Assembly (NCBI RefSeq): GCF_963675165.1
Contig: NC_087384.1
Coordinates: 5,139,182-5,203,181, forward strand
DNA from: Halichondria panicea
Lineage: Eukaryota; Porifera; Demospongiae; Suberitida; Halichondriidae
Length of the DNA stretch: 64,000 nt
Direction of reading: 5' to 3'
The notes beneath the pieces were generated by a model. The model did no database searches. It was not told where the DNA came from and worked only from the letters and a program-made list of their open reading frames with translations. Positions 30,569-57,482 of the stretch are shown here, piece after piece. The number at the start of each line of letters is the position of its first letter. Position 1 is the stretch's first letter. The translations under genes and the position numbers were made by a program.

Positions 30569-33500
30569 ATGTCTGAGGGTAAGATATAAAAGTTGTATAT
30601 CTTACTATGAATTAAACTAGTTACATCTTTTGCAATCCACTACAGAAAAGATTTCAGCTACACCAGATGTGCACCCAGGAGACACGTACTCCAACCAACC
30701 ACCACCTCCTCAACCTTACCTTGGCTACCCTCCATTACCAGGTGCTCCTGGAACAATTGCCTACGACCCCACAAAACAACCAATGGGAGTAGGAGCAGCA
30801 CAGTCAGGGCCAATGCCTGCAGGTTAAACTTGTAGCATACATGCTTGCATGGAGTACTGTAGAGACGCTTATAATTTTTTTAAGGGGAATAAAACAATGC
30901 ATACTCCTAGTGGACTAGAAAAATTATAACTCCATGCATGTATTAGCCTCGATTCCAGGCCGCTTGAAAAAGGCGGCCTGGTATACCTTGTATGCGCATG
31001 CGCGAAATAATTGACCATCATACAAATTGTAAAAAAACGGACAAAGTTACAAAAGGGAATAATACGTATGACAATGTGACCAAAATGACAGCTTTTTCAG
31101 AGACACTAATCAAAGTAGAATAATTATGCTGCAGCAGTGTTAGTTCTTCTAGCTCTGTTTATCAAAGAGACAGTTCAAGAAAGCCTCCCAGACAGCTAGA
31201 GCTGCCAGCTAGGAAGAGTGGTGGACTCTTTAATACATCAGTAGATTTAGTAGCAGAATACTTGCCTGGTCTATATTACCACAGCCTCATCAGGGGACCC
31301 ACAGGAACACATCATGCCTTTCCTGTAGCCTTACAGTGTAGGGTGTCGTTAAGGCTTGATGCAATAAAGGGCGTATATGAACTCAGTCATCTTTGCACAA
31401 TACTTCTATGTAACGGACTGTAAAATCAGAATACAAATAGTATACGGTTTATTTTACTGACAGTATCCACAAATACACGGATTACCCCCTTTTTGGGGTA
31501 ATGTACACGCATGCGCATACAAGGTATACCAGGCCGCCTTTTTCAAGCGGCCTGGAATCGAGGCTATGCATGTATATCCAATTACCCCTATGAATTTGAT
31601 TTGATTTTAAAATGTAAAATATGTGTTTACTGAGGTCAAATGATGGGTCTAATACCTGCTAAGTGGTTTTGCTAAGTGGTTTGTGGCCTAGATGTTTACT
31701 CCATAATCTGGTTGAGAATATTCACAATCATGACAGTAAAGTATATATAGCAACATTTTCTTCAGTGGATGTACCATCTGACTTCTGCATGTGCACTATC
31801 TCTTCACTATACAAAGACTGGTCGTCCCATAAAATATGTCCATGCACTGAATGGAAACAGAGTAGTCTAGAATTGTAACATTTGCAAGAAACACTGCAAC
31901 GAGTAGTTAACTATGTTTGGAAATGTATACATGTAGTATTGAGTTAGCAAATGTAATAACACTAGCACACACGCACACATTTAATACATTCTTTACATGC
32001 AGGTTGATGTAGATTATATATAAAGTGTGTAAACAGTATTTACAAATGGTTTTGTAGAATCTGGGATGGGTGAAAGAATTGGCTGTGGTTTCTTGAAATC
32101 TGACTTAGAGCCAAAAAGTTATTTAATGGGTCCCCCTCCCCGCCCCTTCAATATACATGCATGTTCATAGATTGAAGAGAAAGGGATTGGCACGAAAATC
32201 AAGATTATTTTTTATTCATTTCCAAATGATACCTACCATCAGGGGGCATGTGTTTTTAAGTGTTGGAGGGGTCTTTGAGAAGTAGGCATTAGACACAATA
32301 AGTTTCCCGGGTTTTCGCAGGAGTTTTAGGGCGAAACACAAATGGTTTCAGGCCCATCTGTCTACACTCTATGCAAAAGCATCACGTGAACTGCCTCCGT
32401 TGCCTGGAATCCCTTTCTCTTCAATCTATGGTTAGACCAAGTGTTGCTTGTGAAACCTATAATTAGACACTAGATTATAATTATATATACTGCAGCCCCG
32501 GTAACATGCATTGTGAAGTTCTCTTGTATACCGGCATTGTAAAAATGATATGTATAATGTCAAGCATTTTCTTATGGTTTCATGTGAATGCAGGAAATGG
32601 TGCCCCTCCCTACTACCCTAACCCCAACTCTCAGCCACCACCAGGAAATGGTGCCTCTCCCTACTATCCCAATCCCAACTCTCAGCCACCACCAGGAAAT
32701 GGTGCCCCTCCCTACTATCCCAACCCCAACTCTCAGCCACCACCAGGAAAGGGTGCCTCTCCCTATTATCCCAATCCCAACTCTCAGCCACCACCAGGAT
32801 ATGGTGCCCCTCCCTACTATCCCAATTCTCAGCCACCACCTGGAGCATGGCCACCTCAACCAGTGAGTGCATGTGTTCATCTCAATATCACATTAGGAAC
32901 TATAAAATTATGCTGTACACATCGATCAGTGTCAACCTTTTTCAACTCACTTGAAATGCAAAACATATAGGCATTGTAAATGCCAATAGTTGGGGGTGTG
33001 GTGTTGTTTGTGTGCATGTCACAGCAGAGAAGGTACGACAGGCGTACAGCGTTATTGCTGTGCCATTCAATTAGAGAAAAAACAGCCTGGACACAGCAAT
33101 AACATTGTATGTGGGCGGATAATTAGTGTTTCAATCGAAGGGTAATTGCTTGAGCTGTATACAGCGCCTATCAGCGTGATCATGCAGAGGCCGTTTTTAT
33201 ATAAAGGCCGCACTCAAATAGTAGCCTCTCTATATACAGCCCATCTTCAGTGCAATAGAAGCCGCTCTCAAATATAGTAGCCTCATCAGTGAACTTTCAC
33301 CCTATATCTGAGGCAATCATCTCTGCACTATTGATACTGCATGGTATCAATGCTGGTGTCTGTAGCAACTAGCTAGTAGATAAGACTTTCTCATGGCAAA
33401 GTTTGAGTTTGTGCAGGTGAAAAGAACTTCTAAAATTTCCTGCTATGTATAAAGTAGGGGAGCTCAAACTGTATAAGAATTGTCACCTATAGTACAATAT

Positions 33501-34650
33501 TGATGGATTTGTACTGACATTAGACAAAATACAGCCAGATGTGGGAGGGTCTGCTCTAATCTGATGATATGATAAGACAATAAAGTGCTCTCAGGAGATG
33601 AATTCCATTCACTTCTGTGACATGCACACAAACTATTAGACACCCTTGTAATGCACACTATAATTATGTAGGCTATGTATTCTGAGGCCAATTTTTCCAA
33701 GTAAAAAGTATAGGCCTGATAATTCCCATTAATTCTTTAAACATGTGCCTATTATTCTCATATAAAAGTACACTGTTATCTATACTCTAATTCTATATTG
33801 AGAAGACACATGACTAATATATAATATAAGACACAGTCATGGCTATAATATAAGACATGCGACAATAAACCTTGACATAACATGATAAGCTGCTACAAAA
33901 ATTAATGGTGCATGGTGATGCCAATCTCTTAGCAGGCTTTTAACAACAATGTGATTGCAATATTCAGTTTCATTTTTCTGAGGCTTCCTATAATTATGGT
34001 GGCCTATAGTTACACACAACTTCATATACATGTATATACATTCCAGATTGCCCAGCAACAGACCAGCAGCAATGTGGTGGTGGTCAACTCCCAACCCTCA
34101 GCGATGTCCTCCACAGTGTATGTGACCAGCAATGATCAGTCCTCCTTCATATTTGGTGTTGTGGTTTCTGTGGTGGCAGTCTTCTGTCTCTGCTGGTGGT
34201 CTCTGGTCTGCACCATCCCAGGGGCTGTGGTGGGACACATGGTGAGCTCTTTATACTATAATTGGCAGGCTTCCATGCAGTTCATTTAATTTTGCTTCAG
34301 GTTAATGAGTCTGCATGTAAAGATTCAATGTCATTAGTGTTCACGTGCATGCATGTGTACGTGGGCACATTAATCATGTGTATAACTATACAAAATTCTG
34401 GTCGCATGATTCAACGGTATACATGTTCCATTCAACTTACCCAATCTATGGCATGCAGGCTGCAGCTGCTGGCAGGAATGGAGACAAAGTAACCAAGAAG
34501 AAGTACGACCAAATCTCCGGGGTACTCATAGTGGCTGGTATCATCTTCCAAGTCATTGGCCCCATCATCATCATAGGAAGTTCTGTGGCAAGTGTGGCGA
34601 GATTGTCTAGCAGCATACCATCATCATATTACTATTATAATTCAGGCTAA
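30569..34650 (+). CDS. Array gene 1: Pro-rich two-TM dispanin/CD225-like protein
   Basis: Exons 30569-30578 (MSEG), 30646-30822, 32594-32862, 34047-34241 and 34459-34650 give 280 residues; intron phases are 1, 1, 0, 0. The N-terminal half is Pro/Tyr/Gln-rich. Exon 3 carries five tandem copies of a 14-17-residue unit (GNGAPPYYPNPNSQPPP), more than in any paralogue, each with a PPxY-type PPYY. Exon 4 has NVVVVNSQPS, then a hydrophobic segment with clustered cysteines (IFGVVVSVVAVFCLCWW...CTIPGAVVGHM). Exon 5 begins AAAAGRNGDK, then KYDQIS and a second hydrophobic segment (VLIVAGIIFQVIGPIIII). This resembles the CD225 layout of TM1, a short loop with Gly-Asp, and TM2. IFITM/dispanin proteins act in endosomal or plasma membranes; that role here is inference. 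It belongs to subfamily A with gene 3. Confidence 0.82.
30944..31566. mobile_element. Mutator-like MITE with 9-bp target duplication
   Basis: A 623-base element with terminal repeats TAGCCTCGATTCCAGGCCGC and complement (arms about 75 bases, each containing its own small hairpin around ggccgc), flanked by TGCATGTAT on both sides (30935-30943 and 31567-31575). A 9-base duplication with long terminal repeats is typical of Mutator-like elements. It sits in intron 2 of array gene 1 and has no ORF. Confidence 0.85.
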
Positions 34651-34919
34651 GAATAATTAGACTTGGATTGTCTGCAGTAGCAAGACCTATACATGTATAG
34701 GTGTATACTAGATATAAACACTAAGTGTAGGTGTGATAATTATGATTATTTTTATACCACTTAATTAAATCAATCATTCAAAAGTGAATGATGGTAATTG
34801 TCGCAGACTGTCCCAAAACTATGATACTATTATAATTATGCTGTATACTTTATAGTTCTATTTGAACAACTGTTTAAAACTTAATAAATTTTTGCACCGC
34901 ATAAAGTATTATATTACAG

Positions 34920-36165
34920 GTACAGTGCAACAACCAAAGAGAGTAGATTTTTTTTTATATTATTTTTTTTCACATTTTGTGGCATATCTTCTGAAGTAAA
35001 AGTGATATGATCTATTTGAGTGCAGGTACTGAAAGTTCAATTATTGGCGCTTCCATTGGACCACCACCTGTTACATCATATGACATCATCACTATGAAAT
35101 GGCTGTCTGAAGATGTGTACCTCTGAAAATATGTTAGGAATAGAAGTAGCTTATTTGTTTGAGTTAAGATCTGAAATTTATTGTGTATGTACCTGACTAT
35201 ATTGCTCATCTTTTGAGCTTCAACGGAAGTCTGGGCTGCTAGTAAGTTCTGAGAAATACTGAATTTTGTTGTTTTTTGGTGGCAAATATGTTAGGAATAC
35301 AACTTTTGATTTTATGCTAGTTAAGGTCTGATTTTTGAGGAGCATGTACTACAATAGCATAGAATTCATCTGTACTAACTTACAGGAGCTAGACAAGTCT
35401 CATCTTTGCTAGAGCAGCCCTTCTTGTCAAAAATGGTGATTTTGCTCCGTTTTGCTACTTTTGCTGACGTATGCAATGATATTCATTGATTTGTGACATC
35501 ACAAATCATCTTGTTGTTATTTGCTACATCCAAAGGTCATGTGATGTCTACCTGCAAATACACAGTTGGTGTTGGTCATTCTGTGTCACAGGGCGTGGTA
35601 ATTGAGCTTACTACGTAGCCAAATTGCCCCAAAAGTCATAAAAAGCACTGTTTTTGACAAGATGGGCCGCTCTAGCAAAGAAGAGGCTAGCCTAACTCCT
35701 GTAAGTTAGTACAGATGAAAAGTACACTATTGTAGTACATGCTGCTCAAAAATCAGACCTTAACTAATATAAAATCGAAAGTTGTATTCCTAACATATTT
35801 GCCACCAAAAAACAACAAAATGCAGTATTTCTCAGAACTTACTAGTAGCCCAGACTTCCGTTGAAGCTCAAAAGATGAGCAATATACTCAGGTACATGCA
35901 CAACAAATTTCAGATCTTAACTCAAACAAATAAGCTACTTCTATTCCTAACATATTTTCGGAAGTACACATCTTCAGACAGCCATTTTATACTGATGATG
36001 TCATGTGATGTAACAGGTGGTGGTCCAATGGAAGCGCCAATAGTTGAACTTTCAGTACCTGCACTCAAATAGATCATATCACTTTTACTTTAGAAGATAT
36101 GCCACAAAATGTAAAAAATGTGTACCAAAAAAAAAAATCTACTCTCTTTGGTTGTTGCACTGTAC
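34920..36165. mobile_element. 1.25-kb foldback element
   Basis: Two arms of about 500 bases are inverted copies. The left begins gtacagtgcaacaaccaaag and the right ends with its complement; the arms match through the 65-codon open frames at 35012-35209 and 35875-36072 and inward to ttttgacaagatgggc. About 200 bases lie between the arms. Divergence between arms is a few percent. It encodes no transposase, and no target duplication was obvious. Confidence 0.85.
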
Positions 36166-36446
36166 ATGACATTGTAATCTATAATGAACTTTTGATGACA
36201 CTCTGAAGCATTCCCTCAACGGACCTACCTGAAAACCTCTAGATCTGATTACAGGTTGGTTCACTTCAACTTGTAATTTCTGCCAACCAACCTGAAATCC
36301 TCTGTATATTATTATAATTATTATTGCAAAGCTATATATATATGTAAATCAAGATCTCTACCACCTCACCTGTATACTTAATTAGTAGCCTCTTCATATA
36401 GTATTCAATCATGTACTATAGCTGAATATATATATAGGGTACAGTT

Positions 36447-36520
36447 ACGTAGAACCTCGATTATCCGGACACCTTGGTTCCAGAGGCAGGCCGAATAACC
36501 GGTTAATCGAATAGATATAA
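36447..36520. mobile_element. Pogo-like MITE end (fragment)
   Basis: tagaacctcgattatccgga resembles the ends of the elements at 41640 and 61537. The opposite end was not found. Confidence 0.5.
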
Positions 36521-36890: not shown

Positions 36891-37040
36891 CAGTAGTGAA
36901 TTCTCAGTCCACTGCAGTGCAGTGCCTACTACAGTACATGTGACCAAAGATTGACCTGCAAGATTCCCTATACATGTACATGGTGATGCAGTGGTCATGC
37001 TCATTCTGGTTGTCTGTGCTGTGTGCTTGGTGTGAGTGGA
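36891..37040 (+). pseudogene. Decayed exon 4 of an eighth array gene
   Basis: cagtagtgaattctcag, ccactgcagtgc, gtgcctactacagtacatgt and gtggtcatgctcattctg match exon 4 of array genes 2 and 4-7 in order, but with indels and a stop (aagattga). It is closer to the B subfamily than to gene 1. No other exon was found nearby, so this is a relic of an old duplicate between genes 1 and 2. Confidence 0.7.
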
Positions 37041-40105: not shown

Positions 40106-40117
40106 GATATAAAAAGG
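40106..40117 (+). promoter_or_regulatory. TATA box of array gene 2
   Basis: gatataaaaagg, about 195 bases upstream of the ATG, precedes a non-coding first exon ending near gattgaacatcag. The same 12-mer occurs upstream of array genes 4, 5, 6 and 7. Confidence 0.7.
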
Positions 40118-40303: not shown

Positions 40304-43300
40304 ATGACGAGCGAGAATGCTGAGGTGTACCCAGGCAATGCTGCCTACCCTAATCCAACAGTCCACCCTAACCAGCCACCCCCTCAAGCTAATGCTGCCT
40401 ACCCTAACCCAACAGTTGCCCCTAACTATAACCAGCCACCACCTCCTCAACCTTACCCTGGCTACCCACCAGCTGATCCTGGAATGACTGCCTACGACCC
40501 CAACAAACAACAAATGGGACCAGGAGTGCCAGCAGGTTAGTAGAAATGATATCAGTATATAATGATGCATGCATTAATAACTGCAAAAGAAAAAATTAAT
40601 GCATGCATGGATTTTTTGCAGGTGGAAATCTACCACCATACCAACCATATCCTTCTCATCAGCAACAACCAATGTATGCTCAACCACCAGTGAGTATATG
40701 AAATTGAACTCTCTTAAGATTTGCGTAAAAAAATATCGTCAAATTCCACTATAATTATAATAGCCTGGAGAGTGTTGCTATAACATGCATGAATATTGGT
40801 GTCATGTTTAACAGGTTGTCCAGCAACAAAGCAGCAGCAATGTGGTGGTAGTGAATTCTCAGCCCACTACAGTGCCTACCAGAGTACTTGTGGCGAGAAA
40901 TGATCAATCAGCTTTCATCTTTGCCATAGTGGTCACGTTCATTCTGTTCTTCTGTGGCTGCTGGTGGTCCCTTGCCTGCACGATACCTGCTATGGTGCTC
41001 GGAAGCATGGTGAGTGAAAGTGTATTCAGTATAACCAAGGGCGTATAAAAGAAGAGAGGGCATGCAACTGCACTATCACTATCAGTACCTAGCAGAGTTT
41101 AAACGTGGGCGGAGGAATGTGTGCATTTGCATGAAGTGCTAAAAATAGAAATTTCGATTTTTAGCATTTCATGCACAGTCATTCACATTCATCCGCCCGG
41201 AGTTGCATGCCCTCTCTTCTTTATACGCCCTTGGTATAACACTGAAATATCTCACTACTGAAGGAAAGCAATTTACAACTCTTTTTGCTTACTGATAGTT
41301 AGGCCACTCCAAGTGACACTCTGGTTTCTGGTCCTGATTGCATACGGGCAGGCGGCTTTTCTCATTATTTCATTATCAATTTCACCTTATGAACTCATTA
41401 TTTTGCAAATGAATATCATTATCACACTATTTTGTACTACATGGACCATTCTGCGTATGTGTAGTAGAAATAAATCCAAGAATAAAATCTGATGCGGGCG
41501 GAGGACCAGAAACCAGAGTATCACTTGGAGTGGCCTTACTAAGAGTAATCAAAAAATCATCCAATGGTAGATTTTTTTACCTTTGCCACATATTTATCCT
41601 ACAGCTTGTATATAAGAGTAGAGTATATAAGACATCGAACAGTAGAACTTCGCTAATCCGAATAGAGCCTGACCAGACCCCATCCGAATACATGAAATTT
41701 CCGAATTAACAGATGTCATTAAGTGACATTAACAAAGACACTTGTGTACATGTATTATGATATTACTGTGGCCGGAAGGGACTGCTAGCTAGAAATAGTC
41801 TTTTATCTCTCCAATACAGTAAGCTCTCTTCGTTTTCTTTGCAGTTCATTGTATTGAGCGAGGTATTGAGCATTTTATTAACAGATTTATTGCTGATTCA
41901 GCAAAGCAAGTTAGAGTGCGCATGCGTAGTAGTCTATTCTGCTGACAGCCCTCCTCTTTTTCAGTTTGCCATTTTGTCCGGATTTGTGAGGTTTCGGACT
42001 ACTGAAAGGGGTCCAGATTAGCGAGGTTCTACTGTAACAGCATTTGCCAAACTCGGTCTGTCATTCAACACTTCCCAGAAACCATACAGGTTAGAGTACA
42101 AACCACAGACCACAGCAGTTTACTCAACAACACATATTGTTCCGCCCACACTTAAATTTGCGTGGGTGTTCAATGCAGTTCAGTAAAGGCTACTCCAATT
42201 AATCTCGGTACTCTGAGAAACATAAAAATGCTAACCTTGCTAAGTACACTTACAAACAACATATATACCCATTACTGCAACGCTCCTTGGAGGGTGAGCC
42301 AGACCATGACTGATACTGTTAATTATAGGGTTAGGCCCTCTAATTAATTAGAGGAATGCAACCATGCTGGTTAAATAATAATTAGACATTAATTTTCTAA
42401 TAATTATAATTATTGCTCCCCTAATTAAGTACTTGGGGGTAAAGCCACCAGTCATAGCCTCGGCTCAGCCATGTCGTAACGACAGAGAAGATTATAGAAA
42501 TCAAGGGAGGGTTGGGTGTGGGGCTTTACTCAGATAGCTGATATAGCAAAGGCAGTGATCTCAGCACGAGGTAGTGAGCTGAGAGCACATGCTCATGCAT
42601 ATAAGATGGGCGAGGTCTTTATGTAATGATAGTAGGCAGGGCAGCATGGAGGTACATCGATTAACCTTGTTTAACTACCAATAAAGAACCGTCATGAATT
42701 CGCAGAATTTTGGCGAGGGGGAGCTGTTTAATAATATCATTTTCACCATAAAAATATATGTGTTATAACTAGTTTATATCCCGAGGGCATAGCAACATAA
42801 CACTGTTTTAGTAACACAATATAAACTGCACAAAAAGATGACAAAGACAACTCTAGACACAGCTCCATCTCTTCTCTCTTCTAGACGCCAGTATCTGCAG
42901 CGTATAAGATTGACATGACTGACGAATGGCTTGACACAAAATTGTTGGAGTCCCAACGCTGAAACCACTGTGTGTGTTTAGCAGGGAATTATGAGCCATA
43001 ATCTCATAGTTTCCCAGGGAATTATAAGCTTGAGGGTATAAAGTACAAGTATAATTTTTTGAATGCACAGAAATGAGCTGTAGCTGCATGATAATTAGCT
43101 ATGGGTATTCAGTTTTTTCACTACCAGTTTTTATAGCGTTTGCTGGATTGATGAGTAAGGTTCACCAGTATCTTTTCTTGTCTCTACGAGGAACACTAAG
43201 AGCCAGTGATTTTAACTGTTCTGGGTCCATTGTCACAAGCATGAAAGCATGTCTTCTACATGTATAGGCATTTGTCAACTTCGTCCTCCTGACTTCTGTT

Positions 43301-45758
43301 TCTATCCTGCAGCCATGTTTCAAAATTGTTACTTCAGTAGACTCCTGTGTCTTTTTGGGAACGATAGTGCACTGTAGCATTGCTGTAAGCTATTCCTTGC
43401 TAGCTAGCCCGTACAGATCAGAACAGTTCACTGAGAAGCTTGAGCTGGGGTGGGGCTTGAGTGCAGAGAAAAGAGGAGGCTGGGCTCATTTGTTGCAGAG
43501 CGCTTCCTGCACAAGGTGGAGTCACCAGTTTGTCCATCCAATGTTGAAGCAAGGCCAATGCAAAGGTTTTTTAGCAGAGAAGCAAAAATCATCTAGCTTG
43601 TCAGAACAGGACATTTTCAAAAATAAAACTGTTGCTAAGGCTTGCTGCTTTTATAGATACACTTCTTGCCTGAGGCAGCCAATGAAAAGTGCATGGGATC
43701 TAATCAGTTAGCACATGTGCATTCGGTATCTATGGTTATAGTGTCCCTCATCCATCGGGCAAAGCCCTCGTGATATGGGACACTATAACACATAGATACC
43801 TTATGCCCATGTACTATGTTATAGATAGTACATGGGCATGAGGTATCTATGTGTTATAGTGTCCCAATCACGAGGGCTTTGCCCGAGGGATGAGGGACAC
43901 TATAACCATAGATACCGAATGCACATGTGCTAACTGATTTAGATCCCACTTTTCATTGGCTGCCTCAGGCAAGAAGTGTATCTATAAAAGCAGCAAGCCT
44001 TAGCAACAGCTTTATTTTTGAAAATGTCCTGTTTTGACAAGCTAGATGATTTCTGCTTCTCTGCTAAAAAACCTTTGCATTGGCCTTGCTTCAACATTGG
44101 AATGGACAACTGGTGACTCCACCTTGTGCAGGGAGCACTCTGCAACAAATGAGCCCAGCCTCCTCTTTTCTCTGCACTCAAGCCCCACCCCCAGCTCAAG
44201 CTTCTCAGTAAACTATTCTGATATGTACGGCTAGCTAGCAAGGAACAGCTTGCAGCAATGCTACAGTGCACTATCTTTCCCAAAAAGACACAGGAGTCTA
44301 CTGTTTGAAACATGGCTGCAGGATAGAAACAGAAGTCAGGAGGAAGAAGTTGACAAATACTACAAGTTGAAGACATGCTTTCATGCTTGTGACAATGGAC
44401 CCATAATCATTGGCTCTTAGTGTTCCTCGTAAAGACAAGAAAAGATACTGGTGAACCCTACCATCAACCCAGCAAACGCTATTATAGAAACTGGTAGTGA
44501 AACTGAACAGCCATAGCTAATTATCATGCAGCTAGCTACAGCTTTATTATCATTTCTGTGCATTCAAAAAAAATATATTTGTACTTTATACCCTCAAGCT
44601 TATAATTCCCTGGGAAACTATGAGATTATGGCTCATAATTCCCTGCTAAACACACACAAGTGGGATCTAACTATAACTTATTGCACGAGCTAGTAACCAT
44701 ACTATTGATTAATCGTGTATGATGAAGTTCTCTGCAGTTTTTAATAACATTTTCAGCCGCAGCTGTTATTCGAAAATAATACATTGTCATTGGCAGCGTG
44801 CAATCACTTGACAGGTAATCACGCTGTCAATGACAACGTGCGATTACTAGACCGGATGTGATACGGGATAATTGCTGTACAATCTCCAGTCACTATCTTA
44901 CAATTATTGTAACTATCATTGTTTCATTGTTCTCTTTCATTGAATCATTGCAAACTACAAAATAATATTGTGATGTGATACTGTAACCTTAAATTGAATA
45001 TAGTGATGGCAGTAGAGTTTGGCAAATGCAATTCCACATTTACGCACTATATATACGTACCTAAGTTCAAAACTCTCTATACTTGTATCTAGTCTCATGA
45101 ATCAGCCGCACCTTTGGTGTCCGTCTGAGCATTTTTTACGTGAAATCATTTCACAATGGAATGTATTACGTCACTGTACAAGCTAAAAAAACCATAAAAA
45201 TGCAACCACATCCGCTATCTCTGCTCAGCCACATCACTGCTTGCTGCTCAACCGCATGTAAAGTTTCACTATTTGCTGCCTCCTATTCAAGTCACCTGAT
45301 GCTTGTGAGCAATCTCATTGGTCACGTTGGAAATCCATCGTGGCCCATGAGTTCACGTAAAGAGTGCTCAGACGAACACCAAAGGTGCGGCTGATTCATG
45401 AGACTAACTTGTATTTACTCTTGCTGGTAGGCATTAAACGAACCGCTTGCCTTGACAATCAACTTTGCGATCAAAGTATGCCAATATTAGAGCTAATTAT
45501 TTACATACAGTAACCTCCCCCCACCCCCCCCTCCACACACACGCGCAGGCATCCTCTGCAGGGAGTAGAGGGGACACAGATACTAAAGGCAAGTACGAAA
45601 AGATCTCTATGGCACTCACTGTGATAGCTATCGTGACTCAAGTGGTGGGATTTATCATTGTGGTTGGTGTGGCAGTAGGGATAGTCAATTCAACTAGAGC
45701 GGCGATAATTTCATCATGCTCCTCAAATCGTTTTTCGTCAAATTATTGTTTTGGCTGA
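40304..45758 (+). CDS. Array gene 2: Pro-rich two-TM dispanin/CD225-like protein
   Basis: Coding exons 40304-40535, 40622-40689, 40815-41009 and 45549-45758 (phases 1, 0, 0) give 234 residues. The coding exon starts AC-ATG after the acceptor ttcaacag, so exon 1 is untranslated. It starts MTSENAEVYPGNAAYPNPT, and the NAAYPNPTV block is duplicated. NLPPYQP gives an LPxY/PPxY-type motif. TM1 is FIFAIVVTFILFFCGCWW...CTIPAMVLGSM; the loop is ASSAGSRGDTDTKGKYEK; TM2 is ALTVIAIVTQVVGFIIVVG; the C-terminal tail is Ser/Asn-rich. Intron 4 is 4.5 kb, against about 290-370 bases in genes 4-6, because it has taken in at least five transposons, including a 1.7-kb foldback. Splicing across it is assumed. 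Subfamily B. Confidence 0.8.
41036..41233. mobile_element. CAAGGGCGTA MITE with 7-bp target duplication
   Basis: CAAGGGCGTATAAAAGAAGA with inverted copy at the right end, flanked by GTATAAC on both sides (41029-41035 and 41234-41240). The 198-base body is nearly all palindromic. It lies in intron 4 of array gene 2. The corresponding intron of array gene 4 has flanking sequence (aaatatctcac) without the insertion. Confidence 0.85.
41299..41538. mobile_element. MITE with 37-bp terminal inverted repeats
   Basis: ttaggccactccaagtgaca at the left and its complement at the right bound 240 bases, with a TA or TTA duplication. Confidence 0.75.
41640..42034. mobile_element. Pogo-like MITE
   Basis: cagtagaacttcgctaatcc at the left and ttagcgaggttctactg at the right are terminal inverted repeats of the pogo/Tigger type. 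The 395-base body matches the longer copy at 61537-62466. Confidence 0.8.
42965..44663. mobile_element. 1.7-kb foldback element
   Basis: An almost complete 1.7-kb inverted repeat with two arms of about 840 bases meeting near 43820. The left arm begins ccactgtgtgtgtttagcag and the right ends with its complement. The same open frame (LEL/LSWGWGLSAEKRGGWAHLLQ) is read from both arms outward-in (plus at 43355-43711, minus at 43939-44376). The centre is a nested set of shorter palindromes (gcccatgtactat, cgagggctttgcccg). No transposase and no clear target duplication. It sits inside intron 4 of array gene 2. Confidence 0.9.
45090..45406. mobile_element. hAT-like MITE with 8-bp target duplication
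   Basis: TAGTCTCATGAATCAGCCGC ends with about 40-base inverted repeats, flanked by ACTTGTAT at 45081-45088 and 45407-45414 (one extra C at the left). Eight-base duplications are typical of hAT elements. Confidence 0.8.
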
Positions 45759-47838: not shown

Positions 47839-49485
47839 ATGTCTGAAGGTACTGCACATGTATGCCAAATAATCTTACGCGTACTGTGTAACATTTCTCC
47901 TTGTAACCACAGAAAAGGCTTTGCTTCCAATGTGCTCGAACAACCAGCCACCACCTCCTCAACCTTACCCTGGCTACCCTCCGCCAGCTGCCTCTGGAAT
48001 TACTGCCTATGACCCTATGAAACAAACAGCACCGCCAGGCCTAGGGCCACCACCTGCAGGCACACTGTTTATATGATACCGTTGCCGTAGTCACTGACTA
48101 TAATGAGACTGTATAATTAGCAATGCATGTTTTTCACTGAGGGTGTGTTCGCTTGTACAATCTGGTAGACTTATATATATACATACATCCATGCATGTTC
48201 TTTATGTCAATGTGTGTTTCATACAAACACATGCAGGATACGTTGCCCCTCCCTATTATCCTGCCTCTCAGCCTCCACCACCACCTGGAGCATGGGCACC
48301 CCAACCAGTGAGTGTTGAATTTGTATCAGCTATAACAATATTATACTTATGCATGTATACAGTAGAGTCATTGCGCACTCTCATAAATTTATATAGGTAT
48401 TCAGCTGCATCAGTATTATACATGCATGGCTATGAGTGTATGCATACGGCCAATAAACAGTTTAATTGTGGTGCCTTGAAAACCATTTTTGCTACATAGA
48501 AACCACTTGCTGCATTTGTTTACTGTTTTTGATGGCTGATAATATTATGGTAATAATTGTATGGGTGCTGAGCCTGCATAGCAAACTTCCACACATGCAG
48601 GAACACCACATATATACTTCAGAGAGTGTATCCCTATATATATATATACAAGCATGCAATGATTTGACAGTAATGTTTGGGAGGAGGTGGGAATTTTTCT
48701 CCAGAGGTCAACTTTCTGTATGCTATAATTATCAAAACTCGCCACAGTGCAATAACTATAATTATTGGCACTTTGATTTCAGAGGTTAAAGGTCAAAAGG
48801 CAGCAAGACAAACTATGGCAGGCACTTCTGAATAATTATTGTCATAATTATTATACATATTTTGTTAACCTTTAATCCACTCCAGATTGCCCAGCAACAG
48901 ACTAGCAACAATGTGGTGGTGATGAACTCCCAACCCTCAGTGGTGTCATCCACAGTGCGTGTGACCAGCAATGATCAGTCCTCCTTCATATTTGGTGTTG
49001 TGGTTTCTGTGGTGGCAGTATTCTGTCTCTGCTGGTGTTCTCTGGTCTGCACCATCCCAGGGGCTGTGGTGGGACACATGGTGAGCTATATATACAATGC
49101 CGTTTACAAAGTGGTGTACACTTCCATGACTTATTAATGTGCGAAGTCATGTTATAAAAAATGATACATAATTATACATGTATAATAATTATGTATGCAT
49201 GTGGCTGTAAATTATATTATGTACAAAACTTTTTCTTGTAATTTGCCTGCCAAACAATTAGCGTGACACCAATTAATTTGATAACCTTTTCACTCCCATG
49301 TATATATACAGGCCGCAACTGCGGGCAGGAATGGAGATAAAGTAGCCAAAAGGAAGTACGATCAAATCTCTGGGGCACTCATAATTGCTGGCATTGTCTT
49401 TCAAGTCATTGGCCCCATCATCATTATAGCGAGTGTTGTTGGGCCAAGATTAAAATTTACTGCACATGGCTTACGTATAATATAG
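47839..49485 (+). CDS. Array gene 3: Pro-rich two-TM dispanin/CD225-like protein
   Basis: Exons 47839-47848 (MSEG), 47913-48059, 48237-48307, 48886-49080 and 49312-49485 (phases 1, 1, 0, 0) give 198 residues. It is closest to gene 1: it shares the coding 10-base first exon, APPYYP (PPxY-type), QIAQQQTS-N-VVV, FIFGVVVSVVAVFCLCW, CTIPGAVVGHM and the AA-AGRNGDK loop. It has a single copy of the Pro/Tyr unit that gene 1 expanded to five. The exon-2 donor is gcacac, a GC-AG intron where gene 1 has gttaaa. The C-terminus differs (VGPRLKFTAHGLRII) from the Tyr-rich end of gene 1, perhaps through a frameshift in the last codons. Confidence 0.8.
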
Positions 49486-49989: not shown

Positions 49990-50001
49990 GATATAAAAAG
50001 G
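49990..50001 (+). promoter_or_regulatory. TATA box of array gene 4
   Basis: gatataaaaagg followed by atgaacg; the untranslated first exon ends at 50097 (acctcag, donor gtatat). Confidence 0.75.
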
Positions 50002-50151
50002 ATGAACGGAATAAATACAGTCTCAAAACTGGTTGGTTGTGAATTGAATTCGAACCAGTGAACTATCAGCAGAAAGACATAGCAGACTGAACCTCAGGTA
50101 TATATGTTAATCAATGGTTTGTCCCTGATCAATGTTGATGCTTCAACAGAC

Positions 50152-51066
50152 ATGACGAGTGAGAATGCTGAGGTGTACCCAGGCAATGCTGCCTATCCTA
50201 ATCAAACGTTCTCTCCTAACCAGCCACCACCCTCTCAACCTTACCCTGGCTACCCGCCAGCTGATCCTGGAATGACCGCCTACGACCCCACGAAACAACA
50301 AATGGGACCAGGAGTGCCAGCAGGTTAGTAACCATAACAAACTAACACACGTCAGTACTATATACCTCTACTCACCTGGCTAAAATTGCATGCACATTTC
50401 TTGAATGGAATTATTTTAGCCGACAAATTTTTGAACTGCATGCAGGTGGAAATCCACCACCATACCATCAACCAGCTGCATACCCTTCTCACCAGCAACC
50501 AATGTTCGCTCCACCTCAACCAGTGAGTTGAAAGTTAAAGAAAAAAGTGTTCACAACATTTTTGCATGAAACGTTCGTAAATTGCGCATTATAATTAGGA
50601 CATGCATAATTATTATAATAATGTCATGTTTAACAGGTTGCCCAGCAACAGAGCAGCAGCAATGTGGTGGTAGTGAATTCTCAGCCCACTACAGTGCCTA
50701 CCACAGTGCAGGTGACAAGAAATGATCAATCAGCTTTCATCTTTGCCATAGTGGTCACGCTCATCCTGTTCTTTTGTGGCTGCTGGTGGTCTTTTGCCTG
50801 CACAATACCTGCTATGGTGCTCGGTAGCATGGTGAGTGGAAGTGGTATATATGTATCCCTAGCTGATTATATTATAAGACGAAATATCTCACGATGTTGA
50901 AGGTAATTAATAAGCAAGGTAGATCTATAATATATTATATCTATACAGTGTTTTGCATGCATGCACTATAATGACAACTTAAAACGAAGCTCAACCAATT
51001 AATGATGTGTTTATAATTATACACCCTCCACACACACATACACACACACGCGTGTGCGCGCGTACA

Positions 51067-51108
<42 letters not shown>

Positions 51109-51339
51109 CACATGCAGGCATCCTCTGCAGGGAGTAGAGGGGACACTGACACTAAACGCAAGTACGAAAAGATATCTATGGCACTCACAGTGGTAGCTAT
51201 CGTGACCCAAGTGTTGGGATTTATCATTGTGGTTGGTACAGCAGTGGGGATTGTCATTTCAGGGGCTAGTGCGGCTAGATCAATCGTCACGTCATGCTCC
51301 TCGAGTCGTTTCTCGTCAAATTATTGCGGCTTTGACTGA
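50152..51339 (+). CDS. Array gene 4: Pro-rich two-TM dispanin/CD225-like protein
   Basis: Coding exons 50152-50323, 50446-50522, 50637-50831 and 51118-51339 (phases 1, 0, 0) give 221 residues. It starts MTSENAEVYPGNAAYPNQT; PPPSQPYPGYPP and NPPPYHQP (PPxY) follow. TM1 is FIFAIVVTLILFFCGCWW with Cys-rich CTIPAMVLGSM; the loop is ASSAGSRGDTDTKRKYEK; TM2 is VVAIVTQVLGFIIVVG; the tail is Ser-rich (SCSSSRFSSNYCGFD). The exon-5 acceptor is preceded by about 90 bases of (CA)n (51020-51113), a length-unstable tract. Subfamily B, closest to gene 2 in its C-terminal tail. Confidence 0.83.
51020..51113. repeat. (CA)n tract in front of exon 5 of array gene 4
   Basis: cacacatacacacacacgcg followed by a long (ca)n run ends at the catgcag acceptor. 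Genes 5-7 have ccacacccacacccaccc at the same place. Confidence 0.85.
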
Positions 51340-51540
51340 TATGACTTACAGTTTGAACTTTGAACACTGGACAAACATTGCATGAACCATTATTATAATT
51401 ATTGGCTATAAATTGTCATTATAATAGATAGAATTTTCCCTAGTTGACAATATATTATTATTATATTGCTTAATTTTCCAATAAAGTTATTAATGAAACT
51501 ATATACACAATCAAATCAAACCATCAAAAACATACTATGA

Positions 51541-51692
51541 TTTAACAACACACATGCAGGTAAGGCTTGTCCTTGCTAGTCCGAGTGAAGTGACCAAATT
51601 ATGTGAGGTCGTAAAAATAAACTAATCGCTGTATGCGGTAGCATTTGCAAATACGATTTTCAAGGGCAAAAATTGTCGTTAGCATTTGAATT
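51541..51692 (-). pseudogene. Remnant of AMD1 last exon (spacer 4-5)
   Basis: Compared with the functional AMD1 last exon (57726-57884), this spacer keeps the same order of blocks: tttaac-acacac, taaggcttgtccttgctag, ccgagtgaagtgacc, gtgaggtc, gcggtagc, tcaagggcaa, cgttagcatttgaattctgc. Indels destroy the reading frame. It is antisense to the array genes, as AMD1 is. Confidence 0.8.
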
Positions 51693-51933
51693 CTGCACAA
51701 ATTACATTTGTAAGATCAAGGCATGAGTATAACTGTGACAGTGTATACAATGAATCTTACTTGAATATACATGAACAACGTGCTATTATTGCATACATGC
51801 ACACAGTATTGAATGTGCATTGTGTGCATGTGCTCACTGTATTGATATGTTTGTGCCCATCATAACTTTCAAGTTTAGGTTTAGTAATAAATATAATCAT
51901 TGCTATGGTAAAGTCTGCATCAACTCCATGGAA

Positions 51934-51945
51934 GATATAAAAAGG
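51934..51945 (+). promoter_or_regulatory. TATA box of array gene 5
   Basis: gatataaaaagg followed by atgattgg; the untranslated exon ends at 52035 (gattgaacatcag, donor gtatgt). Confidence 0.75.
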
Positions 51946-52096
51946 ATGATTGGAATACATCAGTTTTCAGTCTCAAAACTGATTGCCAGTAAACTATATA
52001 CATAGCAGAAAGACACAGCAGAGATTGAACATCAGGTATGTTAATCATAGTTTGTCCCGATCAATGTTACGTTGATATATTATACCTTCAACAGAC

Positions 52097-53274
52097 ATGA
52101 CGAGCGAGAATGCTGAGGTGTACCCAGGCAATGCTGCCTACCCTAATCCAACATTCCCCCCAAACCAGCCACCTCCTCAACCTTACCCTGGCTATCCACC
52201 AGCTGCTCCTGGAATGAATGCCTACGACCCCACGAAACAGCCAATGGGACCAGGAGTGCCAGCAGGTTGGCTAATCAACATGCATGCATGCACGCACGCC
52301 AATACTACCTCCAAACTGCATTTATAATATTCAAATGGAAATCAGCAAAATAAATAATTTTTACTGCAGGTGCAAATCCACCACCATACCAACCATCTGC
52401 ATACCCTTCTCAACAGCAACAACCAATGTTTGCTGCACCTCAACCAGTGAGTGAATTTTAAAGAAAAAATGTTGCATGAAAATGTTCTACAGATGGCCCA
52501 GCAACAGAGCAGCAGTAATGTGGTGGTAGTGAGTTCTCAGCCCACTACAGTGCCTACCACAGTGCATGTGACAAGAAATGATCAATCAGCTTTCATCTTT
52601 GCCATTGTGGTTACGCTCATTCTGTTCTTCTGTGGCTGCTGGTGGTCTTTTGCCTGCACAATACCTGCTATGGTGCTCGGTAGCATGGTGAGTGGAAGTT
52701 ACATGCATGTATATCCCTGCATGCATGGTTAATGTAAGCAAGGGGCTTATAAAGAGAAGAGGGCAATGACGCATACATGCATGTAAATCGAGGCAGGATA
52801 ATTATACAGTATAGTGTGAAAAGTCATGCATTCCACCCACGTTGAATGTCTAAAAATAATATTACAGCTGAGTTGGCATGCATGCCCTCTTCTTTTTATA
52901 AGCCCTTGATATAAAAGACAGGAAATTAATTTTTGCAAGTATAGACTATAATTTTATCCTAGAGCTTTTATGCATGCACTAATGTTAAAACAAACCTCTA
53001 CCAAAGTGTGCATACACCCTCCACACCCACACCCACCCACGCATGCATGCAGGCATCCTCTGCAGGGAGTAGAGGGGACGCTGACACTGAAGGCAAGTAC
53101 AAAAAGATCTCTATCATACTCACAGTGGTAGCTATCGTGACTCAAGTGGTGGGATTTATCGTCGTGATTGGTACGGTAGTAGGGGTCGTCCTTTCACCTG
53201 GTGCATTCGTTTCAACATCATCACGCTGCCTCTCATATTATTCTTATTCGTCACGCTGCCGCTATTATGGCTGA
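52097..53274 (+). CDS. Array gene 5: Pro-rich two-TM dispanin/CD225-like protein
   Basis: Coding exons 52097-52265, 52370-52446, 52493-52687 and 53053-53274 (phases 1, 0, 0) give 220 residues. It starts MTSENAEVYPGNAAYPNPT; NPPPYQP supplies the PPxY motif. TM1 is FIFAIVVTLILFFCGCWW; the loop is ASSAGSRGDADTEGKYKK; TM2 is ILTVVAIVTQVVGFIVVIG. The tail is short and Tyr/Ser/Cys-rich (SYYSYSSRCRYYG). It lies in a unit of about 2165 bp that is repeated almost unchanged as gene 6. Intron 3 is only 46 bases, very short. Subfamily B. Confidence 0.85.
52739..52908. mobile_element. Degenerate CAAGGGC-type MITE in intron 4 of array gene 5
   Basis: caaggggcttataaagagaa at the left and ttctttttataagcccttg at the right are decayed versions of the element ends at 41036-41233. 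It is shared with gene 6 (54906-55074) and partly with gene 7 (about 57117-57153), so it predates those duplications. Confidence 0.75.
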
Positions 53275-53547
53275 TCTGACTCAGTTAAAACACTGGACAA
53301 ATTAACATTGTAGATATCGATCAAGATGTATTATAGCTACATTTTATATACTAACTATATAGTATAGATATACGTTTTCAGTTTCATGCATGCACGCAGT
53401 TCATGAGTATATTATACAGTTGAAAGTTGACAAAAAATTTATCATTTTAAATTGTTTGCTGCTCAATTATTTTTCCACATAAGGTAATACTGAGCAGGTA
53501 TCAACTTTTGAATATTATGTATTAGTTAGAGCCTAGCCAGAGTGCAA

Positions 53548-53600
53548 CTAGCCTCGATCCCAGGCCGAGTTTTCGCTTTTATAACGGTTAGGCGAACAAC
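53548..53600. mobile_element. TAGCCTCGA-type MITE end in spacer 5-6
   Basis: tagcctcgatcccaggccga plus gttttcgcttttataacgg; a second copy lies at 55703-55755 in spacer 6-7. The ends match the Mutator-like family at 30944. Confidence 0.6.
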
Positions 53601-53710
53601 CATAATTATATTGACAATATAAATTATTATGATTATATTGCTTAATTTTCCAATAAAGATTTAATGAAACTATATTATACACAATCAAATCAAATCATAA
53701 AAAACTATGA

Positions 53711-53858
53711 TTTAACGACACACAGTGTAAGGCTTGACTTGCTAGTCCGAGTGAAGTGACCAAATTATGTGAGGTCATAAGAATTAACTAATCGCTGTAT
53801 GCGGTAGCATTTGCAAATATGATTTTCAAGGGCAAAAATGTTCGTTAGCGTTTGAATT
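53711..53858 (-). pseudogene. Remnant of AMD1 last exon (spacer 5-6)
   Basis: Contains tttaacgacacacag, ctagtccgagtgaagtgacc, gtgaggtcataagaatta, gcggtagc, tcaagggcaa and cgttagcgtttgaattctgc in the same order as 57726-57884. The start and stop context of the exon is kept (gaattctgc acceptor, ttaacgacacac stop region), but the middle has indels. Confidence 0.85.
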
Positions 53859-54098
53859 CTGCACAATTACATTTGTAAGGTCAAGGCATGAATATAACTG
53901 TGACAGTGTATACAATGAATCTTACTTGAATATACATGAACAACGTGCTATTATTGCATACATGCACACAGTATTGAATGTGCATTGTGTGCATGTGCTC
54001 ACTGTATTGATATGTTTGTGCCCATCATAACTTTCAAGTTTAGATTTAGTAATAAATATAATCATTGCTATGGTAAAGTCTGCATCAACTCCATGGCA

Positions 54099-54110
54099 GA
54101 TATAAAAAGG
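54099..54110 (+). promoter_or_regulatory. TATA box of array gene 6
   Basis: gatataaaaagg, in an upstream region nearly identical to that of gene 5, so the pseudogene is probably still transcribed. Confidence 0.7.
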
Positions 54111-54261
54111 ATGATTGGAATACATCAGTTTTCAGTCTCAAAACTGATTGCCAGTAAACTATATACATAGCAGAAAGACACAGCAGAGATTGAACATCAG
54201 ATATGTTAATCATAGTTTGTCCCGATCAATGTTACGTTGATATATTATACCTTCAACAGAC

Positions 54262-55440
54262 ATGACGAGCGAGAATGCTGAGGTGTACCCAGGCAATGCT
54301 GCCTACCCTAATCCAACATTCCCCCCAAACCAGCCACCTCCTCAACCTTACCCTGGCTATCCACCAGCTGCTCCTGGAATGAATGCCTACGACCCCACGA
54401 AACAGCCAATGGGACCAGGAGTGCCAGCAGGTTGGCTAATCAACATGCATGCATGCACGCACGCCAATACTACCTCCAAACTGCATTTATAATATTCAAA
54501 TAGAAATCAGCAAAATAAATAATTTTTACTGCAGGTGCAAATCCACCACCATACCAACCATCTGCATACCTAATTCTCAACAGCAACAACCAATGTTTGC
54601 TGCACCTCAACCAGTGAGTGAATTTTAAAGAAAAAATGTTGCATGAAAATGTTCTACAGATGGCCCAGCAACAGAGCAGCAGTAATGTGGTGGTAGTGAG
54701 TTCTCAGCCCACTACAGTGCCTACCACAGTGCATGTGACAAGAAATGATCAATCAGCTTTCATCTTTGCCATTGTGGTTACGCTCATTCTGTTCTTCTGT
54801 GGCTGCTGGTGGTCTTTTGCCTGCACAATACCTGCTATGGTGCTCGGTAGCATGGTGAGTGGAAGTTACATGCATGTATATCCCTGCATGCATGGTTAAT
54901 GTAAGCAAGGGCTTATAAAGAGAAGAGGGCAATGACGCATACATGCATGTAAATCGAGGCAGGATAATTATACAGTATAGTGTGAAAAGTCATGCATTCC
55001 ACCCACGTTGAATGTCTAAAAATAATATTACAGCTGAGTTGGCATGCATGCCCTCTTCTTTTTATAAGCCCTTGATATAAAAGACAGGAAATTAATTTTT
55101 GCAAGTATAGACTATAATTTTATCCTAGAGCTTTTATGCATGCACTAATGTTAAAACAAACCTCTACCAAAGTGTGCATACACCCTCCACACCCACACCC
55201 ACCCACGCATGCATGCAGGCATCCTCTGCAGGGAGTAGAGGGGACGCTGACACTGAAGGCAAGTACAAAAAGATCTCTATCATACTCACAGTGGTAGCTA
55301 TCGTGACTCAAGTGGTGGGATTTATCATCGTGATTGGTACGGTAGTAGGGGTCATCCTTTCACCTGGTGCATTCGTTTCAACATCATCACGCTGCCTCTC
55401 ATATTATTCTTATTCGTCACGCTGCCGCTATTATGGCTGA
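54262..55440 (+). pseudogene. Array gene 6: near-identical copy of gene 5 with a frameshift
   Basis: Exons 54262-54430, 54535-54613, 54660-54854 and 55219-55440 match gene 5 almost base for base. Exon 3 is 79 nt instead of 77: gcatacccttctcaac in gene 5 reads gcatacctaattctcaac here, a net two-base insertion. The frame leaves the Pro-rich sequence and meets a stop early in exon 4 before TM1, so no membrane protein can be made unless exon 3 is skipped out of frame or the insertion is an assembly error. Exons 2, 4 and 5 are individually intact, which points to very recent inactivation. The promoter is preserved. Confidence 0.85.
54906..55074. mobile_element. Degenerate CAAGGGC-type MITE in intron 4 of array gene 6
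   Basis: Near-identical to 52739-52908, copied with the unit. Confidence 0.75.
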
Positions 55441-55863
55441 TCTGACTCAGTTAAAACACTGGACAAATGAACATTGTAGATATCGATCAAGATGTATTAT
55501 AGCTACATTTTACTAACTATATAGTATAGATATACGTTTTTTCAGTTTCATGCATGCACGCAGTTCATGAGTATATTATACAGTTGAAAGTTGACAAAAA
55601 ATTTATCATTTTAAATTGTTTGCTGCTCAATTATTTTTCCACATAAGGTAATACTGAGCAGGTATCAACTTTTGAATATTATGTATTAGTTAGAGCCTAG
55701 CAACTAGCCTCGATCCCAGGCCGAGTTTTCGCTTTTATAACGGTTAGGCGAACAACCATATATTGACAATATAAATTATTATGATTATATTGCTTAATTT
55801 TCCAATAAAGTTATTAATGAAACTATATTATACACAATCAAATCAAATCATAAAAAACTATGA

Positions 55864-56016
55864 TTTAACAACACACACACAGTGTAAGGCTTGTCCTTGC
55901 TAGTCCGAGTGAAGTGACCAAATTATGTGAGGTCATAAGAATTAACTAATTGCTGTATGCGGTAGCATTTGCAAATATGATTTTCAAGGGCAAAAATGTT
56001 CGTTAGCGTTTGAATT
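55864..56016 (-). pseudogene. Remnant of AMD1 last exon (spacer 6-7)
   Basis: Same block order as the other two remnants: tttaacaacacacac, ttgctagtccgagtgaagtg, gaggtcataagaatta, gcggtagc, tcaagggc, cgttagcgtttgaattctgc. It is closest to the 53711-53858 copy. Confidence 0.85.
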
Positions 56017-56250
56017 CTGCACAATTACATTTGTAAGGTCAAGGCATGAATATAACTGTGACAGTGTATACAATGAATATATTACTTGAATGTACATGAA
56101 CAACGTGCTATTATTGCATACCATGCATGCATGCACACAGTATTGAATGTGCATTAATTGTGTGCCATGTACTCACTGTATTGATATGTTTGTGCCCACA
56201 ATTTTCAATACATAATCATTGCTATGGTTAAGTGTCTGCATCAACTGGCA

Positions 56251-56262
56251 GATATAAAAAGG
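56251..56262 (+). promoter_or_regulatory. TATA box of array gene 7
   Basis: gatataaaaagg followed by atgaacg; the untranslated exon ends with gattgaacatcag before gtatgt. Confidence 0.75.
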
Positions 56263-56411
56263 ATGAACGCAGTTTTCAGTATCAAAACTGGTTGTCAGAT
56301 TAGTAAACTATACATAATAGCAGAAAGACACAGCAGAGATTGAACATCAGGTATGTTAATCATAGTTTGTCCCGATCAATGTTACGTTGATATATTATAC
56401 CTTCAACAGAC

Positions 56412-57482
56412 ATGACGAGCGAGAATGCTGAGGTGTACCCAGGCAATGCTGCCTACCCTAATCCAACATTTCCCCCAAACCAGCCACCCCAACCCGCTTA
56501 CCCTGGCTACCCACCAACTGCCCCTGGAATGACTGCCTACGACCCCACGAAACAGCCAATGGGACCAGGAGTACCTGCAGGTTGGCTAATCAACATGCAT
56601 GCATGCACGTCAGTACTATACCTCCACTCACCTGGCAAACTGCATTTTAAAAAATTGTAATCAGCAAAATAAATATTTTTTACTGCAGGTGCAAATCCAC
56701 CACCATACCAACCACCTGCATACCCTTCTCAACAGCAACAACCAATGTTTGCTGCACCTCAACCAGTGAGTGAATTTTATAAAAAGTTACATTGAAATGG
56801 CATGCTAATCCTATACAGATGGCCCAGCAACAAAGCAGCAACAATGTGGTGGTAGTGAGTTCTCAGCCCACTACAGTGCCTACCACAGTGCATGTGACAA
56901 GAAATGATCAATCAGCTTTCATCTTTGCCATTGTGGTCACGCTTATCTTGTTCTTCTGTGGCTGCTGGTGGTCCTTTGCCTGCACAATACCTGCTATGGT
57001 GCTCGGCAGCATGGTGAGTGGAAGTTACATGCATGTATATCCCTGATCAATCATAAGCAGAGTGTGAAAAAGTTATCATTCCCACCCATGTCTAAAAATA
57101 ATAGGATGAAGTTTGAGATAGCCTGAGCTTGCATGCCCTCATAAAGCCCTTGATATACTATTTATCCTAGAGATTTTATGCATGCACTAATGTTAAAACG
57201 AACCTCTACCAAAGTGTGCATGCACCCTCCACACCCACACCCACCCACGCATGCATGCAGGCATCCTCTGCAGGGAGTAGAGGGGACGCTGATACTGAAG
57301 GCAAGTACAAAAAGATCTCTATCATACTCACAGTGGTAGCTATCGTGACTCAAGTGGTGGGATTTATTATTGTGGTTGGTACGGTAGTAGGGGTCGTCAC
57401 TTCAGGTGCTCGTGCAATTGTTTCAACAACATCACGCTGCACCTCATTTTCTTATTCGTCAAGCTGCTTCTATGGTGGCTGA
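56412..57482 (+). CDS. Array gene 7: Pro-rich two-TM dispanin/CD225-like protein
   Basis: Coding exons 56412-56580, 56689-56765, 56819-57013 and 57261-57482 (phases 1, 0, 0) give 220 residues. Pro-rich half with NQPPQPAYPGYPP and NPPPYQPPAYP (PPxY). TM1 is FIFAIVVTLILFFCGCWW; the loop is ASSAGSRGDADTEGKYKK; TM2 is VVAIVTQVVGFIIVVG. The tail ends TSFSYSSSCFYGG. It is the last array member, 244 bases from the stop of AMD1, which converges from the other strand. Gene 7 is more diverged from 5 and 6 than those are from each other. Subfamily B. Confidence 0.85.

Follow-up and report, generated by a model that had tools for sequence, protein, structure and literature searches.

A tandem array of two-segment membrane protein genes in the sponge Halichondria panicea, probably distantly related to the CD225/dispanin superfamily

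We analyzed a 64-kb stretch of the 131-Mb genome of the sponge Halichondria panicea (C8:5139182-5203181, hereafter the window), which carries a tandem gene array at window positions 30569-57482. Wnt matches at three places in this genome, on C3, C12 and C6, indicate an animal; an innexin search gave two hits barely above the cut-off, on which nothing was based. A first-pass annotation of this DNA had described the array as seven dispanin/CD225-like genes and one relic that share an exon plan. Scripted splice models with checked splice sites gave seven tandem loci, G1 to G7, all on the plus strand, and the relic was recovered as well, but only six of the loci are intact. The array comprises the following features, where TM1 and TM2 denote the exons of the first and second transmembrane segment and PPxY or LPPY marks the exon with that motif:

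30569-34650, plus strand: G1, splice model with exons 30569-30578, 30646-30822, 32594-32862 (PPxY), 34047-34241 (TM1) and 34459-34650 (TM2)
36893-36944, plus strand: relic of a TM1 exon, found as a match to the TM1 exon of G4
40304-45758, plus strand: G2, splice model with exons 40304-40535, 40622-40689 (LPPY), 40815-41009 (TM1) and 45549-45758 (TM2)
47839-49485, plus strand: G3, splice model with exons 47839-47848, 47913-48059 (GC donor), 48237-48307 (PPxY), 48886-49080 (TM1) and 49312-49485 (TM2)
50152-51339, plus strand: G4, splice model with exons 50152-50323, 50446-50522 (PPxY), 50637-50831 (TM1) and 51118-51339 (TM2)
52097-53274, plus strand: G5, splice model with exons 52097-52265, 52370-52446 (PPxY), 52493-52687 (TM1) and 53053-53274 (TM2)
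54262-55440, plus strand: G6, near-copy of G5 with a frame-shifted PPxY exon (54535-54613), from splice model and alignment
56412-57482, plus strand: G7, splice model with exons 56412-56580, 56689-56765 (PPxY), 56819-57013 (TM1) and 57261-57482 (TM2)

The spliced frames of G1, G2, G3, G4, G5 and G7 are open over 198-280 amino acids and end in a stop codon. The frame of G6 is broken by a +2 indel relative to G5 in exon 3, which is the PPxY exon; the two units are otherwise near-identical (97.5% identity over 2161 aligned nucleotides), and G6 is probably a young pseudogene or an assembly error. The relic, 52 nucleotides in length, is 81% identical to the TM1 exon of G4 (E 1.3e-10). The common exon plan holds for the last three exons but not for the beginning of the genes, as a separate first coding exon is present only in G1 (ATGTCTGAGG) and G3 (ATGTCTGAAG), while in G2, G4, G5, G6 and G7 the coding start lies inside the exon that follows it. 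The open frame of G3 requires a GC donor (GCACAC) at exon 2, its altered C-terminus is without the Tyr/Cys-rich tail, and G3 may be a decaying gene. The last intron of G2 spans 4.5 kb. It contains inverted repeats at 42969-44658, a nested palindrome with arms of 245 nucleotides (96%), 92 nucleotides (98%), 75 nucleotides (96%) and 73 nucleotides (99%). Another inverted repeat, with 489-nucleotide arms (92%), lies downstream of G1 at 34966-36118, and these repeats are probably derived from mobile elements.

The intron phases are shared as the first-pass annotation had proposed: a phase-1 intron precedes the PPxY exon at all seven loci, and the TM1 exon measures 195 nucleotides in every locus and, where the gene is intact (six cases), lies between two phase-0 introns. 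The encoded proteins follow one plan, with a Pro/Tyr-rich N-terminus, PPxY or LPPY in its own small exon, TM1 with the signature C-x-C-W...C-x-I-P, a short Gly-Asp loop, and TM2. The Cys-bearing TM1, the Gly-Asp loop and TM2 that had been predicted were each seen in all six intact proteins; a Kyte-Doolittle scan gave two hydrophobic regions in each, some of them divided into overlapping pieces, and the C-x-C lies 19 and 17 residues ahead of the intron in each. Purifying constraint prevails on the TM1 exons, with ratios of nonsynonymous to synonymous substitution rates (dN/dS) of 0.16-0.30 apart from G1-G3 (0.68) and G7 versus G5 or G6 (0.03). For TM2 and the loop, three pairs involving G2 reached 1.16-1.30 over few sites, a stretch too short for a claim of selection.

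PPxY is present in five of the six intact proteins, whereas G2 carries LPPY instead, and across the array genes the motif opens one and the same small exon. In G1, this exon is internally repeated and holds PPYY three times and PPGY once.

The CD225/dispanin superfamily (PF04505), to which IFITM, PRRT, SYNDIG, TUSC5 and TMEM233 proteins belong, shares with the array two hydrophobic segments, C-x-C in TM1, a short Gly-Asp loop, a phase-0 intron dividing the segments and a Pro-rich N-terminus. The array differs from it by its C-x-I-P motif in TM1 and by the lack of a Pfam match over the cut-off. The check with the Pfam CD225 model that had been suggested in the first-pass annotation did not bear out the assignment. 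The model matched none of the six full array proteins at E<=10, and among the six array cores it matched only that of G3 (E 0.085, 13.4 bits versus a cut-off of 27.1). Other families scored higher on the cores, namely DUF3611 on G5 (E 6.3e-4, 20.1 bits, cut-off 27) and G7 (E 1.8e-3), and TatC on four of six (best E 1.5e-3), which is below its cut-off yet above CD225; DUF4190 likewise matched four of six (best E 8.4e-3, 16.3 bits versus a cut-off of 35). Among 11 members of a wider set, sub-threshold matches were obtained to DUF4190 in nine, CD225 in six, TatC in three and DUF3611 in three. All these results, including the weak DUF4190 match in 9 of 11 members, weigh against kinship with CD225. 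The first-pass annotation would have given up its claim if no CD225 similarity appeared in profile or structure searches, or if an unrelated two-segment family matched better, and the Pfam outcome taken alone comes close to this.

The same scores raise the alternative that the array belongs to another two-segment family, for example a DUF3611-, TatC- or DUF4190-like one, and resembles CD225 by convergence, given that DUF3611 (2/6), TatC (4/6) and DUF4190 (4/6) reach more array cores than CD225 does (1/6). However, no candidate exceeded its cut-off, the preferred family differs among members, and DUF4190 (PF13828), the one of the three families with which this genome was searched, matched none of the array exons at E<=10. 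We regard this alternative as distinctly unlikely, and an identity with any of the three families was not adopted, the matches being sub-threshold ones among many membrane families. The DUF3611 similarity of the G5 and G7 cores (52493-53274 and 56819-57482) covers both hydrophobic segments and may reflect chance hydrophobicity or a remote link. Among NCBIfam models, the 'CCC motif membrane protein' model matched 5 of 11 members (best E 0.024) and was not adopted either, and the strongest match, to Wzy_O6_O28, was sub-threshold (2 of 11 members, best E 3.6e-4).

Because the Pfam check came near to refuting the assignment, we examined the build of the genuine CD225 genes in this genome. A genome-wide PF04505 search, in which only the best candidates were scored, gave at least 37 exon matches over the cut-off; they lie on C17, C14 and C6, and the window is free of them. 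They comprise at least 20 TM1-type and at least 17 TM2-type exons; since five of the TM2 matches stand apart from any TM1 match, one of them being the gene at C17:99298-99964 (called the bridge gene below), there would be at least 25 CD225 loci, some perhaps broken. In all ten CD225 cores assembled for comparison (eight from C17 and two from C14), TM1 and TM2 are divided by a phase-0 intron placed exactly 7 residues ahead of Gly-Asp, and the identical intron is found in all six intact array genes and in the bridge gene. Nearly all eukaryotic dispanins are described as having a splice site conserved in this loop (PMC3282796); our comparison was made within one genome. As the loop is short, the coincidence of the introns alone is modest evidence, which gains weight together with the profile comparisons and intermediate genes.

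Such intermediates were found by searching the genome with the array cores. Beyond the array, the search detected a cluster at C7:5702646-5729879 and loci at C7:5677097 and C17:5105519, so that the genome contains 15 array-type loci (7 + 7 + 1). The C7 cluster and C17:5105519 are the closest paralogues of the array (profile E 3.2e-33), and the eight C7/C17 relatives share with it NV-x-V/I, C-x-W...C-x-I/V-P and the loop intron. A Gly occupies the matching place in the loop of seven of the eight (G-D in three, G-N in two, G-Q in one, G-E in one), and one is without it. A Cys lies 11 residues before the intron in all six array cores and all eight relatives, and in two of four C14 CD225 entries. 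Unlike the array, four of the eight relatives retain G-x-x-x-G, and Pfam traces of CD225 were detected in six of the seven relatives tested, in three of them as the top family (E 9.7e-4, 4.1e-3 and 4.2e-3, below the cut-off). In four of these six, the CD225 match extends to profile position 64-67 of 68, while DUF4190 matches mostly cover the first half of that family. PPxY is likewise found in the stretches upstream of TM1, chosen by eye, of all eight relatives, and in eight of nine CD225 entries typed on C14, C6 and C17, with LPPY in the ninth; these stretches were also picked by eye and do not amount to a survey.

The bridge gene also links the two groups. It matches Pfam CD225 at E 1.3e-8 and the array-type profile with an hhalign probability of 96.8, and within C17:97500-101500 it shows an array-like NVVVxNQP stretch at the N-terminus, while its TM1 half is unlike both groups. 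Apart from itself, its best matches in the genome are a stretch in one C7 relative that covers the TM2 exon together with the intron before it (27% identity, one internal stop, E 6e-4) and two CD225 genes on C14 (49% identity at E 0.0015 and 47% at E 0.017). By its sequence, C17:99298-99964 thus appears as a bridge, with a very long branch in the tree and unsure placement. The convergence alternative has to account for this gene, for the intron position and PPxY common to the array and CD225 genes, and for the near full-length CD225 matches of the relatives.

Profile-profile comparison also argues for descent from a common ancestor with CD225. Fourteen array-type cores (six array and eight C7/C17) aligned to the ten CD225 cores with an hhalign score of 50.7 (probability 95.4), compared to 20.0 for the best of 100 column shuffles, 23.2 for the best of 100 shuffles that preserved the hydropathy pattern, and 18.1 for the reversed profile. 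The array alone reached a score of 31.1 (probability 61.2; best shuffle 22.0). When the 1,255 six-frame open reading frames (ORFs) of the window were searched with a profile built from CD225 genes alone, the array TM2 exons took ranks 1-7 (E 0.024-0.31), followed by the next ORF at 0.55; as the seven exons are paralogues, they are worth about two independent observations. In the tree, the array and the CD225 genes form separate groups (99/98 for the array, 85/84 for the CD225 genes), and the C7 relatives were not resolved as a single group.

Further results stand on the opposite side of the balance. The array alone aligned to the eight C17 CD225 genes with an hhalign probability of only 1.6, versus 70.2 for the two C14 genes, and the bridge gene reached only 10.1 and 0.4 with the C17 and C14 CD225 groups, respectively. 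The array TM1 exons ranked 72-419 among the 1,255 ORFs with the CD225-only profile; since they are not singled out, the CD225 signal is located in the loop and TM2. A profile of C17 CD225 genes alone placed an unrelated ORF (18013-18195, minus strand) first and the TM2 exons at ranks 2-6, 9 and 27, while the corresponding C14 profile placed them at ranks 1, 2, 3, 6, 7, 8 and 14. The loop motif A-X6-A, present in 8 of 10 CD225 cores and in the bridge gene, occurs in none of the six array proteins. Finally, PPxY is not in excess of composition, the fraction of 2,000 shuffles with at least the observed count being 0.065-1.0. The motif is therefore notable for its fixed position in a single exon and not for its frequency.

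In structural searches, the CD225 gene C14:2203024 matches PRRT1/SynDIG4 (PDB 9zks chain M) at E 0.0064, whereas neither the array profile nor the wider array-type profile does; these two profiles retrieved from the PDB only 8qag, an entry listed as sc-CC-6-95 (E 0.11 and 0.27), and, at E 4.4, a designed repeat protein.

Taken together, the homology to dispanins that had been suggested for the array is backed by the shared intron and its phase, the profile comparison against shuffles, the ORF ranking and the intermediates, and opposed by Pfam. We consider the array very probably homologous to CD225. Because the length of TM1, A-X6-A and the SNARE-like Arg differ, we would class it as diverged kin of the CD225/dispanin superfamily and not as one of the PF04505 proteins. 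The distance from an Asp flanking TM1 to the intron is 36 residues in the array versus 27 in 9/9 C17 CD225 genes, which makes TM1 9 residues longer. This Asp is invariant in the array, and the four C14 CD225 entries are without Asp there. TM2 of the array carries an invariant Gly, whose register with the CD225 Gly varies by alignment.

Upstream of the genes, the sequence TATAAAAAGG has five exact matches in the window versus 0.19 expected, all of them in front of array genes:

40108-40117, plus strand: TATAAAAAGG, probable core promoter of G2 (exact match)
49992-50001, plus strand: TATAAAAAGG, probable core promoter of G4 (exact match, alignment)
51936-51945, plus strand: TATAAAAAGG, probable core promoter of G5 (exact match, alignment)
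54101-54110, plus strand: TATAAAAAGG, probable core promoter of G6 (exact match, alignment)
56253-56262, plus strand: TATAAAAAGG, probable core promoter of G7 (exact match, alignment)

No exact match to TATAAAAAGG was found upstream of G1 and G3. The upstream alignment revealed a conserved leader with a probable intron in the 5' untranslated region, and part of the sharing of TATAAAAAGG is due to common descent of recent copies. Promoters of the TATA type are often inducible, so regulated expression of the array can reasonably be expected.

The first-pass annotation had drawn a parallel to human IFITM3, which holds only in part. The N-terminal PPxY, the TM1 cysteines and the predicted hairpin layout are indeed common to both, but the tyrosine of the array PPxY is without the YxxPhi signal that follows in IFITM3, and neither the second Gly of GxxxG nor the SNARE-like Arg is present in any of the six array proteins. 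The second Gly is also missing from all ten CD225 cores of this genome; its absence thus sets both groups apart from IFITM3 but does not distinguish the array from the CD225 genes around it. The second residue past the intron, by our own count the position of R85 in IFITM3, is Ala or Ser in the array and Arg in all eight C17 CD225 cores. In the array, the 11-residue stretch ahead of the first TM1 Cys is of plain hydrophobic character and has a helical moment of 0.18-0.23 (0.17-0.33 in CD225 cores).

These residues bear on the possibility that the array encodes IFITM-like restriction factors, which would keep enveloped viruses or intracellular microbes from fusing at endosomes, with expansion and turnover reflecting an arms race. 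Distant CD225 homology, PPxY and Cys, the turnover within the array, seen in one young copy and one relic, and the TATA-type promoters in common would all fit. So would reports that mycobacterial IFITM proteins with minimal identity to IFITM3 restrict influenza virus in human cells (PMC4488726) and that a Hydra PRRT1/CD225 gene is found in a table of symbiont-dependent genes (PMC6019070). Against this stand the missing second Gly, as G95 of IFITM3 is reported to be needed for oligomers and activity (PMC7665892), the missing Arg, the mostly purifying dN/dS of the TM1 exons, and perhaps also the hydrophobic character and helical moment of the stretch before the first TM1 Cys. On balance, an IFITM-like function is unlikely.

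A role as SNARE-mimicking trafficking regulators like PRRT2 or TUSC5 appears very unlikely. CD225 proteins have been described to influence SNARE-driven traffic via a SNARE-like stretch (PMC12478428). By our count, the Arg of this stretch is replaced by Ala or Ser in all six array proteins; some human CD225 proteins are described in the same source as likewise without it.

Returning to the divergent-CD225 reading, we suggest that the array arose by tandem expansion of a divergent CD225/dispanin branch. Each protein would form a hairpin in endosomal or plasma membranes, bear a Pro-rich arm and be palmitoylated at its TM1 cysteines. WW-HECT ligases of the NEDD4-like kind would bind PPxY and thereby set the level, sorting or degradation of the protein, as IFITM3 is ubiquitinated by NEDD4, which binds via PPxY (PMC4532365). 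In this genome, adjoining WW and HECT matches were detected at C7:5496819-5502146, C7:173110-177436 and C17:5298025-5301730, and such side-by-side matches are the pattern expected of NEDD4-type ligases. The copies, turned on via their TATA-type promoters, may adjust fusion or traffic of membranes in those cells that ingest particles and microbes. Most likely, the array proteins would therefore be ubiquitin-controlled endomembrane hairpin proteins. As a whole explanation, tandem expansion of divergent CD225 genes combined with this mechanism is the account towards which we lean, with moderate confidence.

A more far-reaching version seems quite unlikely: the array branch would be an independently evolved, PPxY-controlled and inducible repertoire for membrane defence or symbiont control, with a mechanism unlike that of IFITM3. 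It would imply that the genome has some 40 or more loci of the CD225 superfamily, spread over several tandem arrays, and that one branch lost the SNARE-like determinant and lengthened TM1.

If the kinship is true, the Pfam model falls short of the full breadth of the dispanin superfamily, and a single animal may possess dozens of such genes in tandem arrays, compared to the 14 dispanins reported in human (PMC3282796). Dispanin C1 has been reported in the sponge O. carmela (PMC7653359); in literature on dispanins, CD225 and IFITM proteins in sponges and invertebrates, the full texts of which were largely unopened, we found no report of the array branch. Since the array is without parts that IFITM3 needs, it would offer a natural test of which hairpin features are essential for membrane rigidifying, fusion control and trafficking, and also of whether PPxY control predates interferon.

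Elsewhere in the window, no Rfam family matched at the gathering threshold. A short tandem repeat at 9453-9857 gives long ORFs on both strands, the minus-strand unit corresponding to 17 protein letters, and a 252-amino-acid open frame at 26082-26840 (plus strand) resembles, by eye, a cytosolic sulfotransferase.

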